Source of the DNA: Bacteroidota bacterium
GTDB lineage: Bacteria; Bacteroidota; Ignavibacteria; UBA10030
NCBI GenBank assembly: GCA_021813905.1
Contig: JAKAJH010000024.1
Coordinates: forward strand, 1 to 47,057
Length of the DNA: 47,057 bases
Reading direction: 5' to 3'
Shown: in pieces, positions 1 to 3,128 of the stretch
Layout: the number at the start of each line of letters is the position of its first letter
How positions within the stretch are numbered: position 1 is the stretch's first letter
Position numbers and translations under genes: made by a program
The notes under the pieces: model-generated
The model's input: only the letters and a program-made list of their open reading frames with translations
Database searches by the model: none
Told to the model about the DNA's origin: nothing

Positions 1-152
1 GTTCGACGGCGCTGTTGCCGGTAGAAAGCACGAACTGCAGCCCCGGCTGTTGCGTTCGTACGTCACTGCACACGCTGAACCAAGTGCCGAAACGGCGTAG
101 TGCCAACCCTTCCTGGGAGCAGAAAGCACTCCCCGCATGCACGCCCAACTAA
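1..152 (-). other. Cassette 4, 5' part only (runs out of window)
   Basis: This stretch starts at the attC recombination point (G at 153) and continues beyond the left edge. Read on the minus strand it aligns with the first ~130 bases of cassettes 1 and 2. It keeps the GGGAG...CTCCC inverted repeat near the start, a short frame reading (LVGR)xCGExxLLPxRVG and ending in TGA, and a GTGCTTTCTA block matching GTACTTTCTA in the other two. The GTG proposed as start of the small downstream ORF in cassettes 1 and 2 is replaced by CCG here. No complete gene can be called. Confidence 0.6.
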
Positions 153-300
153 CGTGTGGGAGCTAAGCTGCGCGCGAGCGCCGAAGGTGAAACGGCGCTA
201 GCGGCAGCAAAACTCATGATCTTATCTGTTCGATTCCCTTTGTTGGCGAACGGCACTGAAGCCTTCTTCGCGCGTCAGCTTGAGCGACCTGTTAGGGCGC
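143..300 (-). other. attC site of cassette 3
   Basis: On the minus strand the site opens with GCGCCCTAAC and closes with GTTAGTTGGGC. The inner arms GCTCAAGCTGACGCGCG and CGCGCGCAGCTTAGC pair imperfectly and leave the unpaired bases typical of attC. The lipoprotein stop codon TAA (292-294) lies inside the first core box, as is usual for cassette genes. About 100 bp of spacer separates the arms. Confidence 0.85.
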
Positions 301-822
301 GTGATCACTGTTGGCCGCCTTAGCAGGAGCGGTCAACTGATAAACCGACTCGGGAGGATAGAGGATACCAAGCACCAGTCCGGCAACAGATCCTAGAGTC
401 GAACCGTAGACAAATCCCCCAAGACCAGCCCAAGGATCGTCCGAGAGTGCATGCGCCACTCCGATGCCGCCAACGGCTCCGGCAAAGGTCCCGACAGCGC
501 ATCCGACAACAGCGCCGAGTACCGGGTGAGGGATTACGATTCCACGAACATCCCGAGTATCCAGCTTGAGTGTGTCGAGCATTTCGCGAAAGATGACCGA
601 ACTGTCGGATGACTTTAGCTCAGTGAGGGACTTCTCCTGACCATCGCTGAGCACGACCTGAACATCGTCTCCGGCATACCTCTGGGCGAAATCCTCTGGA
701 GTAATCTGGGTTCCCTTGAAATGCTCATCATGCCGAAGCGTCTCCACAGCGGTAGCGCAACCCGAGAATCCCACGAGCAGAGCCAGTAAACCCAAAAGAC
801 CAGTTGACCGCCACACTCTCAT
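292..822 (-). CDS. Cassette-borne lipoprotein with glycine-zipper C-terminus
   Basis: This is the gene of cassette 3, 176 aa from the ATG at 822, which lies 15 nt inside the recombination point. The longer open frame to 915 runs through the attC site and is not used. The N-terminus has RST, a hydrophobic run and a lipobox LVGFSGC with Cys22, so a lipid-anchored envelope protein is expected. Residues ~95-155 are rich in G-x-x-x-G steps (GAVVGCAVGTFAGAVGGIG and GLGGFVYGSTLGSVAG). Such glycine zippers are seen in small outer-membrane and inner-membrane-inserting proteins. The stop lies in the attC core. There is no clear Shine-Dalgarno, so translation may depend on the cassette promoter transcript. 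I do not recognise the family and no function can be assigned. Confidence 0.75.
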   Translation of the reverse strand: MRVWRSTGLLGLLALLVGFSGCATAVETLRHDEHFKGTQITPEDFAQRYAGDDVQVVLSDGQEKSLTELKSSDSSVIFREMLDTLKLDTRDVRGIVIPHPVLGAVVGCAVGTFAGAVGGIGVAHALSDDPWAGLGGFVYGSTLGSVAGLVLGILYPPESVYQLTAPAKAANSDHAP

Positions 823-830
823 GATCACGC

Positions 831-978
831 GCCCTAACGTGTGGGAGCTAAGCTGCGCGCGAGCTGAAAGGCTCAAACGGCAGCGTGATAACCTGAACTT
901 CTGATCTACTTCCAATCTTGCCAGCAGACGGCACTAAAGCCTCATTCGCGCGTCAGCTTGAGCGACATGTTAGTTGGG
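831..978 (-). other. attC site of cassette 2
   Basis: Minus strand: the first core is CCCAACTAAC (978 to 969) and the last core is GTTAGGGC (838 to 831). The arms TCGCTCAAGCTGACGCGCG and CGCGCGCAGCTTAGCTCC form the imperfect stem. The spacer is nearly identical to that of the attC at 1283-1433 (about seven differences by eye). Confidence 0.85.
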
Positions 979-1292
979 AAAGGTGCTTAAAAGCTGAAAG
1001 TGTTCAGGCGGCTGAAAACTTCCCCGACCGGTACACAGCCAGCTTCAACTGACGGGTGTGCGGGGTACTCTTCAGCTCGATTGAAAGCAGATGGATCTCT
1101 GACGGCACCAACCCCGAAAACCGACGACCGCTGCACTTCCCCAAGCACTGTCGCCACTAGAAAGTACTCACTTCAGCAACAACTACCAACTTTCGCACTT
1201 CACTTAAGCCGCTGAACCAAGACGGTGAGAGCGGCACCCAGGCCAACCCTGTTTGGGAGCAAAGATCGCTCCCCGCACACCCGCCCAACTAA
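838..1292 (-). repeat. Integron cassette 2 (455-bp copy of cassette 1)
   Basis: The cassette is exactly as long as cassette 1 and aligns with it without gaps. I count about 26 substitutions over 455 bases, of which about seven are in the attC. Neither copy carries a conventional gene. The only minus-strand frame ending close to the attC is the 56-residue one at 987-1157. The first ~30 bases contain a GGGAGC...GCTCCC hairpin. Confidence 0.85.
987..1157 (-). CDS. Possible small cassette protein, 56 aa (copy 2)
   Basis: A GTG-initiated minus-strand frame ends in TAA nine bases before the attC core, where cassette genes normally end. Its C-terminal half includes RDPSAFNRAEEYPAHPSVEA and GEVFSRLN. 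An in-frame stop just upstream fixes the GTG at 1157 as the only start. There is no clear ribosome binding site. Compared with the copy in cassette 1 there are about three silent and three replacement changes, so there is no strong sign of purifying selection. I do not recognise the family. The cassette could instead be non-coding. Confidence 0.3.
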   Translation of the reverse strand: MATVLGEVQRSSVFGVGAVRDPSAFNRAEEYPAHPSVEAGCVPVGEVFSRLNTFSF

Positions 1293-1433
1293 CGTGTGGG
1301 AGCTAAGCTGCGCGCGAGCTGAAAGGCTCAAACGGCAGCGTGATAACCTAAACTTGTGATCTACTTCCAATGTTGCCAGCTAACGGCACCGAAGCCTCAT
1401 TCGCGCGTCAGCTTGAGCGACATGTTAGTTGGG
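1283..1433 (-). other. attC site of cassette 1
   Basis: Minus strand: the first core CCCAACTAAC lies at 1433 to 1424 and the last core GTTAGTTGGGC at 1293 to 1283. The outer ten bases of each arm are perfectly complementary. The inner arms pair with bulges, as in other attC sites. Confidence 0.87.
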
Positions 1434-1747
1434 AACGGTGCTTAAAAGCTGTGTGTGTTCAGACGGCTGAAAACTTCCCCGACCGGTACACAGCCAGCTT
1501 CAACTGACGGGTGTGCGGGGTACTCTTCAGCTCGATTGGAAGCAGATGGATCTCTAACGGCACCAACCCCGAAAACCGACGACCACTGTACTTCCCCAAG
1601 CACTGTCGCCACTAGAAAGTACTCACTTCAGCAACAACTACCAACTCGCGCACCTCACTTAAGTCGCTGAACTAGGATGGTGAGAGCGGCACCCAAGCCA
1701 ACCGTGTTTGGGCGCAAAGATCGCTCCCCGCACACCCGCCCAACTAA
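1293..1747 (-). repeat. Integron cassette 1 (attI-proximal, 455 bp)
   Basis: This is the first cassette after attI, so it should be the most recent insertion or duplication. It is a same-length, about 94% identical partner of cassette 2. Its leader carries the same short frame (CGERSLRPNTVGLG, ending LVQRLK then TGA) as cassette 2. One base change weakens the leader hairpin (GGGAGC facing GCGCCC). Confidence 0.85.
1442..1612 (-). CDS. Possible small cassette protein, 56 aa (copy 1)
   Basis: This is the counterpart of the frame at 987-1157, with the same GTG start and the same TAA position relative to attC. Differences include R to W, F to S and F to H replacements, with silent changes elsewhere. 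The frame survives without indels, but so does the whole cassette, so coding status is uncertain. Being closest to the putative Pc promoter, it would be the best transcribed cassette. Confidence 0.3.
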   Translation of the reverse strand: MATVLGEVQWSSVFGVGAVRDPSASNRAEEYPAHPSVEAGCVPVGEVFSRLNTHSF

Positions 1748-1800
1748 CTCTGGATTAGATGATATTTGCACAGATATATGTGCGTAACGGGGAATGGACG
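1738..1800 (-). other. attI recombination site
   Basis: The core GTTAGTTGGGC (1748 to 1738, minus strand) joins cassette 1 to sequence unrelated to the cassettes. It is therefore the attI crossover point. To its right is a GCACA-6 nt-TGTGC inverted repeat (1768-1783) that could belong to the integrase binding region. The right boundary is approximate. Confidence 0.65.
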
Positions 1801-1941: not shown

Positions 1942-1970
1942 AATCTACACTTTCTCACAAGAATTGTCAA
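1942..1970 (-). promoter_or_regulatory. Probable cassette promoter Pc
   Basis: Reading left, TTGACA (1970-1965), a 17-bp spacer and TAGATT (1947-1942) form a near-consensus housekeeping promoter about 200 bp before the first cassette. The -35 box lies in the inverted repeat GAATTG-T-CAATTC (1961-1973). The position between intI and attI, pointing into the array, matches Pc. Overlap with the intI leader means the two transcripts could interfere. Confidence 0.65.
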
Positions 1971-1987
1971 TTCTCCCGGGGATCCGT

Positions 1988-3022
1988 ATGGCACAAAAAC
2001 TTCTGGATTCTGTCCGCGACGCGATCCGAACACGACACCTGAGCCGCCGAACAGAACAGGCATACACCTACTGGACCAAACGCTTCGTCCTCTTCCACAA
2101 TAAACGCCACCCGTCTGAACTCGCAGAACCCGAAATTCGCGCGTTTCTCACGCATCTCGCCACCGAAGAAACAGTCTCATCCTCCACCCAAAACCAGGCG
2201 CTGAATGCTCTCCTCTTCCTTTACCGAAATGTCCTGAACAAAAAGCTGAACCACCTCGGGACCATCGAACGTGCAAAACGCTCGAAACGCCTGCCGAATG
2301 TCTTTACCCCCGATGAAGCCTTCCGCATCCTTACAGAACTCTCCGGTGTACCGCAACTGGTGGCTGCGGTGCTGTACGGATCCGGAATGCGCCTGATGGA
2401 ATGCCTGAAACTGCGCGTGCAGGATGTCGACTTCGAGCGGCGATTGATCGTGGTGCACGAGGGAAAGGGCGCCAAGGACCGGATCGCAATCCTCCCGGAA
2501 CGCCTCATCCCGCCGCTACGACATCAGGTGGAACGGGTGCGACTGATCCACCAGCTCGATCTGCGCGACGGATTCGGCCACGCACTGCTGCCCGGCGCGC
2601 TGGAGCGGAAAGCGGCAAGCTATTCGACACAGCCCGGATGGCAATTTCTCTTCCCGGCATCAAAGCGCTCGATGGATCTGGAGACGGGAAAGATCATGCG
2701 CTTCCATCTGGATCCGTCCACGATCCAGCGACTTGTGAAAGAAGCGATCGAGCACGCGGGCATCCGAAAGAACGCGAGCGTGCATACGTTCCGGCATTCG
2801 TTCGCAACGCATATGCTCGAGAATGGATGCGATATCCGCACGGTGCAGGAATTGCTCGGACATCGTGACGTGCGCACGACGATGATCTATACGCACGTGC
2901 TGAGCCGCACGCGACCACCGGTCCGGAGCCCGCTGGATGTGTGGAAAGAGAAAGAGGAACGACTGCTGGAGGATAAGCGGGTGCAGACGCTGGCGGAGCG
3001 GAGTGAGAAGGAGGCGGGGTAG
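1988..3022 (+). CDS. intI: Integron integrase IntI (tyrosine recombinase)
   Basis: The protein has 344 residues and catalyses attI x attC and attC x attC recombination of single-stranded folded attC sites. The N-terminal SAM-like core-binding domain covers ~1-90 (RTRHLSRRTEQAYTYWTKRF) and the catalytic domain ~100-310. The catalytic set is R135 (GSGMRL), K160, H266/R269 (HTFRHSF), H292 (LLGHRDV) and Y301. The spacing of 131, 26 and 9 residues equals that of IntI1. The IntI-specific insertion is present at ~200-228 (ALERKA...GWQFLFPAS), which separates it from XerC/XerD. I chose ATG 1988, with GGGG at 1978-1981 in front. A TTG at 1964 would add eight residues. The gene is intact, so the array may still be active. 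IntI genes are common in Proteobacteria and scattered in other phyla including Chlorobi. Confidence 0.95.
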   Translation: MAQKLLDSVRDAIRTRHLSRRTEQAYTYWTKRFVLFHNKRHPSELAEPEIRAFLTHLATEETVSSSTQNQALNALLFLYRNVLNKKLNHLGTIERAKRSKRLPNVFTPDEAFRILTELSGVPQLVAAVLYGSGMRLMECLKLRVQDVDFERRLIVVHEGKGAKDRIAILPERLIPPLRHQVERVRLIHQLDLRDGFGHALLPGALERKAASYSTQPGWQFLFPASKRSMDLETGKIMRFHLDPSTIQRLVKEAIEHAGIRKNASVHTFRHSFATHMLENGCDIRTVQELLGHRDVRTTMIYTHVLSRTRPPVRSPLDVWKEKEERLLEDKRVQTLAERSEKEAG

Positions 3023-3128
3023 GGGCGGGGGTACGAGGATGCGAGGGTACGAACGTACGAGGGTACGGGGGTACGTATGTGGGTGGGTGATTGGGTGGGT
3101 AGGTGTGTGAGTGTGCGGGTGAGTGGAT
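3014..3128 (+). repeat. G-rich low-complexity tract with G-quadruplex motif
   Basis: Between intI and mfd, short units such as GGGTACGAG and GGGTGGGT repeat imperfectly. Positions 3081-3099 hold four GGG runs with loops of 1, 5 and 1, the canonical G-quadruplex pattern on the plus strand. A second G-rich run is at 3014-3026. The tract ends about 35 bp before the mfd -10 box. Related sequence in the opposite sense appears at 18590-18650 and 33540-33615. Confidence 0.7.

Follow-up and report, generated by a model that had tools for sequence, protein, structure and literature searches.

Paralogous gene-less cassettes in a Bacteroidota integron with split pairing between their own ends

What do two nearly identical integron cassettes do when they sit one behind the other and neither appears to carry a gene? 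The pair lies at the left end of the window, the whole 47,057-nt stretch analysed here, which is one entire contig (C6) of a 3.08 Mb genome of the Ignavibacteria lineage. It touches two open questions: why gene-less cassettes are numerous in integrons, and what favours the free cassette circle for integration. The array lies on the 5′ side of the integrase gene intI, whose product also matches the Pfam families Phage_integrase and SAM-like. Its cassettes are read on the minus strand and point away from intI, so the first, attI-proximal cassette is the one at 1293–1747. In order from intI the array comprises cassette 1 (1747–1293), cassette 2 (1292–838), cassette 3 (837–153) and the start of cassette 4 (152–1):

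1964–3022, plus strand: intI, integron integrase, 352 aa (TIGR02249, E 9e-129, 429 bits against a cut-off of 265)
1942–1970, minus strand: candidate cassette promoter in the attI region, TTGACA-17-TAGATT, pointing into the array (consensus scan only)
1293–1747, minus strand: cassette 1, attI-proximal, ORF-less, 455 bp including attC (read from the sequence)
1293–1428, minus strand: attC of cassette 1, the 136-nt element common to the array's cassettes, with readable R''/R' and L''/L' arms
838–1292, minus strand: cassette 2, ORF-less, 455 bp including attC, 94% identical to cassette 1
838–973, minus strand: attC of cassette 2, the same 136-nt common element
153–837, minus strand: cassette 3, coding, with a lipoprotein-like ORF (292–822) and an ordinary 17-bp terminal inverted repeat
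1–152, minus strand: cassette 4, start only (contig end), a diverged homologue (~66%) of the start of cassettes 1 and 2

Cassettes 1 and 2 each carry an attC at the 3′ end and stand in an array adjoining attI and intI, as integron gene cassettes do. The ORF of cassette 3 has no match in Pfam or NCBIfam. The other end of the array is probably on contig C28 (L009/L042). At L009, two cassettes of one array (129–740 and 2367–3077) encode paralogous outer-membrane-like proteins and have similar ends; these proteins likewise match nothing in Pfam or NCBIfam.

Comparison of the twin copies bears out the earlier note's description of two gapless 455-bp sequences, about 94% identical, each with its own attC in minus-strand reading. 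They differ by 26 mismatches (17 transitions, 9 transversions; 94.3% identity) and no gap, with similar substitution rates in the 319-nt payload (19) and the 136-nt attC (7). The absence of indels had been read as a constraint on length or structure, an argument that proves weak, because the chance of seeing no indel among 26 substitutions is 0.06–0.27, assuming one indel per 9–20 substitutions. The longest substitution-free stretch, 76 nt, is not unusual either (P 0.21). Cassette 4, a third copy 66% identical to the other two, has indels, and length is therefore not constrained. The other reading offered earlier, repeated re-insertion of related cassettes, is supported. Searches for payload homologues covered 98 genomes from the order and 395 from the phylum, where only short chance matches appeared, as well as plasmids and, by exact-pattern scans, viral contigs; none was found. 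One match, in genome G014, was rejected as a homologue; it falls within an apparent protein-coding gene.

The payload also gives no sign of encoding a protein. As previously stated, it has no normal ORF, with none above ~60 aa from a start codon on the reading strand. Non-coding cassettes have been defined by the lack of any ORF >150 bp, of protein matches and of a synonymous-site pattern (PMC1382264). The best candidate, a 56-aa frame at 987–1157 on the minus strand, measures 171 bp with its stop, slightly over that 150-bp limit, and shows no coding signal. Its reading as a micro-protein cassette draws on the frame being open in both cassettes 1 and 2 and on four of its eight substitutions being synonymous, four being replacements; however, this synonymous share is no different from random placement (2.4 expected, P 0.18). 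In cassette 4 the start codon has changed from GTG to CCG and the frame is shifted, and no counterpart was seen in the other cassettes with split ends described below. Neither purifying selection nor retention of the frame in homologues was found, and we give a micro-protein next to no probability. Of the earlier proposal that the pair represents a non-coding RNA or micro-protein cassette, the non-coding character is supported, whether as DNA or as RNA, and the micro-protein is not.

What cassettes 1 and 2 do carry is pairing between their own ends. In each, a1 plus a2 is the exact reverse complement of a2′ plus a1′ over 23 nt, provided that a 74-nt insert is skipped: the outer 10 nt pair with the cassette end, the adjoining 13 nt, without a mismatch, with a stretch lying 74 nt deeper in the cassette. 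The arms are placed as follows:

1739–1748, minus strand: a1 arm of cassette 1, GTTAGTTGGG, pairing with a1′ at 1424–1433
1726–1738, minus strand: a2 arm of cassette 1, CGGGTGTGCGGGG, pairing exactly with a2′ at 1508–1520
1508–1520, minus strand: a2′ arm of cassette 1, CCCCGCACACCCG
1434–1507, minus strand: 74-nt insert of cassette 1, between a2′ and a1′
1424–1433, minus strand: a1′ arm of cassette 1, CCCAACTAAC, joining attC
1284–1293, minus strand: a1 arm of cassette 2
1271–1283, minus strand: a2 arm of cassette 2
1053–1065, minus strand: a2′ arm of cassette 2
979–1052, minus strand: 74-nt insert of cassette 2
969–978, minus strand: a1′ arm of cassette 2

We group as split-end cassettes those in which a1 (8–10 nt) pairs with the cassette end and the adjoining a2 (12–15 nt) pairs 74–79 nt further in; cassettes 1 and 2 belong here, with 13/13 pairs in a2/a2′. 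A leader hairpin proposed earlier, GGGAGC/GCTCCC, loses one pair in cassette 1 and shows no compensation. A search of the rest of the genome for the a2′ predicted for cassette 4 (CCCCGCATGCACG, ~74 nt before its end arm) gave only that cassette's own start and, at chance level, sites with one mismatch; the contig stops before the 3′ end of this cassette is reached.

The split layout recurs in three genomes (G009, G008 and G005) of another genus in the same family, where the arms differ in sequence and are again complementary. The cassettes concerned are ORF-less in G009 (g9b) and G008 (g8) and coding in G005 (g5a, g5b), and a further ORF-less cassette, g9a of G009, has the layout with two mismatches. 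As g5a and g5b carry genes, coding cassettes can have the layout too. Six split cassettes standing before an attC emerged when both strands of 2.46 Mb were scanned with a descriptor of the layout, against none per shuffled pass. Within each cassette a2/a2′ forms 11–13 of 13 pairs, versus a mean of 4.6 for arms exchanged between cassettes, and the same inner-arm search in 68 ordinary cassettes gave 10 pairs at most. At 12 of the 13 a2/a2′ positions two or three Watson-Crick pair types occur, which indicates compensatory change. These changes in other cassettes strongly support the predicted long-range structure of a1/a1′ and a2/a2′, be it formed in DNA or in RNA. The window cassettes and those of the other genus are too dissimilar in sequence for common descent to be proved.

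The insert measures 74–79 nt in every split cassette with an intact a2′ arm; its length is thus conserved, but no stable fold is common to all. Two candidate identities for it were rejected: ORF-less bodies gave no credible match to an attC model, as a relic attC would, and a conserved hairpin is not stable in g8. In two more cassettes, g9c and g9d, most of a2′ and part of the payload are deleted, yet both still stand within an array. G004 has, at L166:1513–1569, a 58-nt intergenic stretch that matches the 3′ insert of g9c at 79% identity and belongs to no recognised integron. The coding split cassettes of G005 (L032:1226–2541 and L138:5978–7622, minus strand) have a second inner inverted repeat, GTTTTGCGGCACAGT, around the coding part, exact in L032, which gives the appearance of one cassette inside another.

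Could such pairing be a leftover of cassette origin, with neutral filler between attC sites and no selection on payload or pairing? The even substitution rate across payload and attC, the indels in cassette 4, the deletions in g9c and g9d and the lack of coding signal all agree with this. Neutral decay would not, however, keep 11–13 of 13 a2/a2′ pairs in arms whose sequences vary from cassette to cassette, and we consider filler quite unlikely.

The compensatory changes also bear on a structured non-coding RNA, acting in trans or as a leader, in which a1/a1′ and a2/a2′ would form stems P1 and P2 with the 74-nt insert at their junction. Besides the compensation in P2, such an RNA would account for the constant insert length and could be transcribed from the sigma-70-like promoter upstream, and a cassette-encoded sRNA is known in sRNA-Xcc1 of Xanthomonas, which is oriented against its array, beside symE (PMC8876359, PMC12444791). 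Against it, the 319-nt payload folds with z-scores that are marginal at best on the reading strand (−1.25 for cassette 2, −2.20 for cassette 1) and similar on the other (−2.04 and −1.83). Coding cassettes show equally strong end pairing, the insert lacks a conserved fold, the payload is partly deleted in g9c and g9d, and an Rfam search gave no credible match. We regard an RNA product as unlikely, though as the likeliest of the rivals.

Alternatively, the pair might act as a promoter or insulator, supplying or altering transcription for the cassettes downstream or for intI. ORF-less cassettes from Treponema, in the oral metagenome, can carry promoters (PMC6557892), and cassettes 1 and 2 occupy the first and second positions of their array. 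But neither strand of either cassette has a sigma-70-like site, although the phylum's promoter consensus may differ. The only match is the candidate in the attI region, which scores 10/12 in a scan that found one site against 0.7 expected in shuffles. This role appears very unlikely.

A role at the DNA level seems better placed to explain the pairing, and extended pairing of cassette ends proves general in this order. Ordinary attC core-box pairing (R''/R') involves a 7-bp core. Among 94 cassettes parsed from the window and from arrays of related genomes (loci L032–L042 and L125–L164), 72% have a cassette-specific terminal inverted repeat of at least 12 bp, exact, as do 0.6% of swapped ends; the median is 14 bp, falling to 5 bp when ends of different cassettes are combined. 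Repeat length is independent of cassette length from 0.28 to 2.6 kb (Spearman 0.16, P 0.18), as expected if the pairing acts across attC and not across a transcript. In other phyla automatic attC detection was too noisy for a clean comparison; some proteobacterial cassettes show end repeats of 10–12 bp, and the difference in repeat length may be one of degree. Elsewhere, at L146:219–585, two tandem ORF-less cassettes with a payload of ~100 nt each have ordinary end repeats and come close to attC-only cassettes.

In the excised circle a cassette's own ends flank attC directly, whereas in the array the start of the next cassette takes that place; only in the free circle, therefore, can the repeats extend the attC hairpin. 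By computed DNA folding, the bottom-strand attC gains 9.1 ± 3.4 kcal/mol in stability when the flanking start is the cassette's own (circle) and not that of its neighbour (array), and the circle was the more stable form in every one of 50 ordinary cassettes whose repeats reach 12 bp or more. Cassette 2 gains 7.9 kcal/mol in the circle. Cassette 1 pairs as well in the array, because cassette 2 begins with the same sequence.

From these folding energies we infer a DNA-level role for the end pairing. On the account that we favour, by a slim balance of probability, cassettes 1 and 2 would be paralogous ORF-less cassettes of a chromosomal integron that make no protein, move by the action of IntI on their attC, and keep an end pairing that promotes the return of the free circle to attI. 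Selection would keep a1/a1′ at the very ends and a2/a2′, whose inner partner stands 74 nt ahead of the end arm. With the circle's ends on either side of attC, their pairing would lengthen the attC hairpin, which by calculation may help the single-stranded attC to fold and could thereby favour re-integration at attI. Repeated copy-in at attI would have left cassettes 1 and 2 and, earlier, the diverged cassette 4; the payload between the arms would be nearly or wholly unconstrained. This integron has an intact integrase and intact attC, and the overall picture suggests that the two cassettes persist as mobile non-coding DNA. Extension of attC leaves the 74–79-nt insert length unexplained. A bolder version, which we hold only as a minor possibility, places split-end ORF-less cassettes in a class of their own among selfish elements carried by integrons: non-coding circles that would spread through arrays because two-step pairing, with a1 beside attC and a2 past a fixed 74–79-nt spacer, favours the circle over the integrated site as IntI substrate and biases integration one way.

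Conserved, compensated end pairing arises in the circle and, as a rule, is missing from the array. It offers a definite point at which both opening questions can be tested, and a signature for sorting non-coding cassettes. We know of no earlier report of a split-repeat layout. A literature search found no earlier description of split end pairing; since its coverage was partial, this is weak evidence of novelty.

How do these cassettes compare with known ones? Those with ordinary attC core boxes (R''/R') likewise have complementary ends of their own, and the difference lies in extent: 12–17 bp in this order against 7 bp, and 10 + 13 bp split by 74 nt in cassettes 1 and 2. With the sRNA-Xcc1 cassettes of Xanthomonas (PMC8876359, PMC12444791) they share the possibility that the product is an RNA, but there is no sequence or Rfam link between the two. 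Promoter-bearing ORF-less cassettes (PMC6557892) also combine the lack of an ORF with an attC and can stand first in an array; no sigma-70-like promoter site was found, in contrast, in cassettes 1 and 2. A further parallel is with Vibrio integrons, where paralogous non-coding cassettes are well known (PMC1382264). These differ in lineage and sequence, and the available portion of that report makes no mention of split end pairing; as described there, they too have no ORF, occur as several related copies per array, are conserved over their length and lack homologues outside their lineage.
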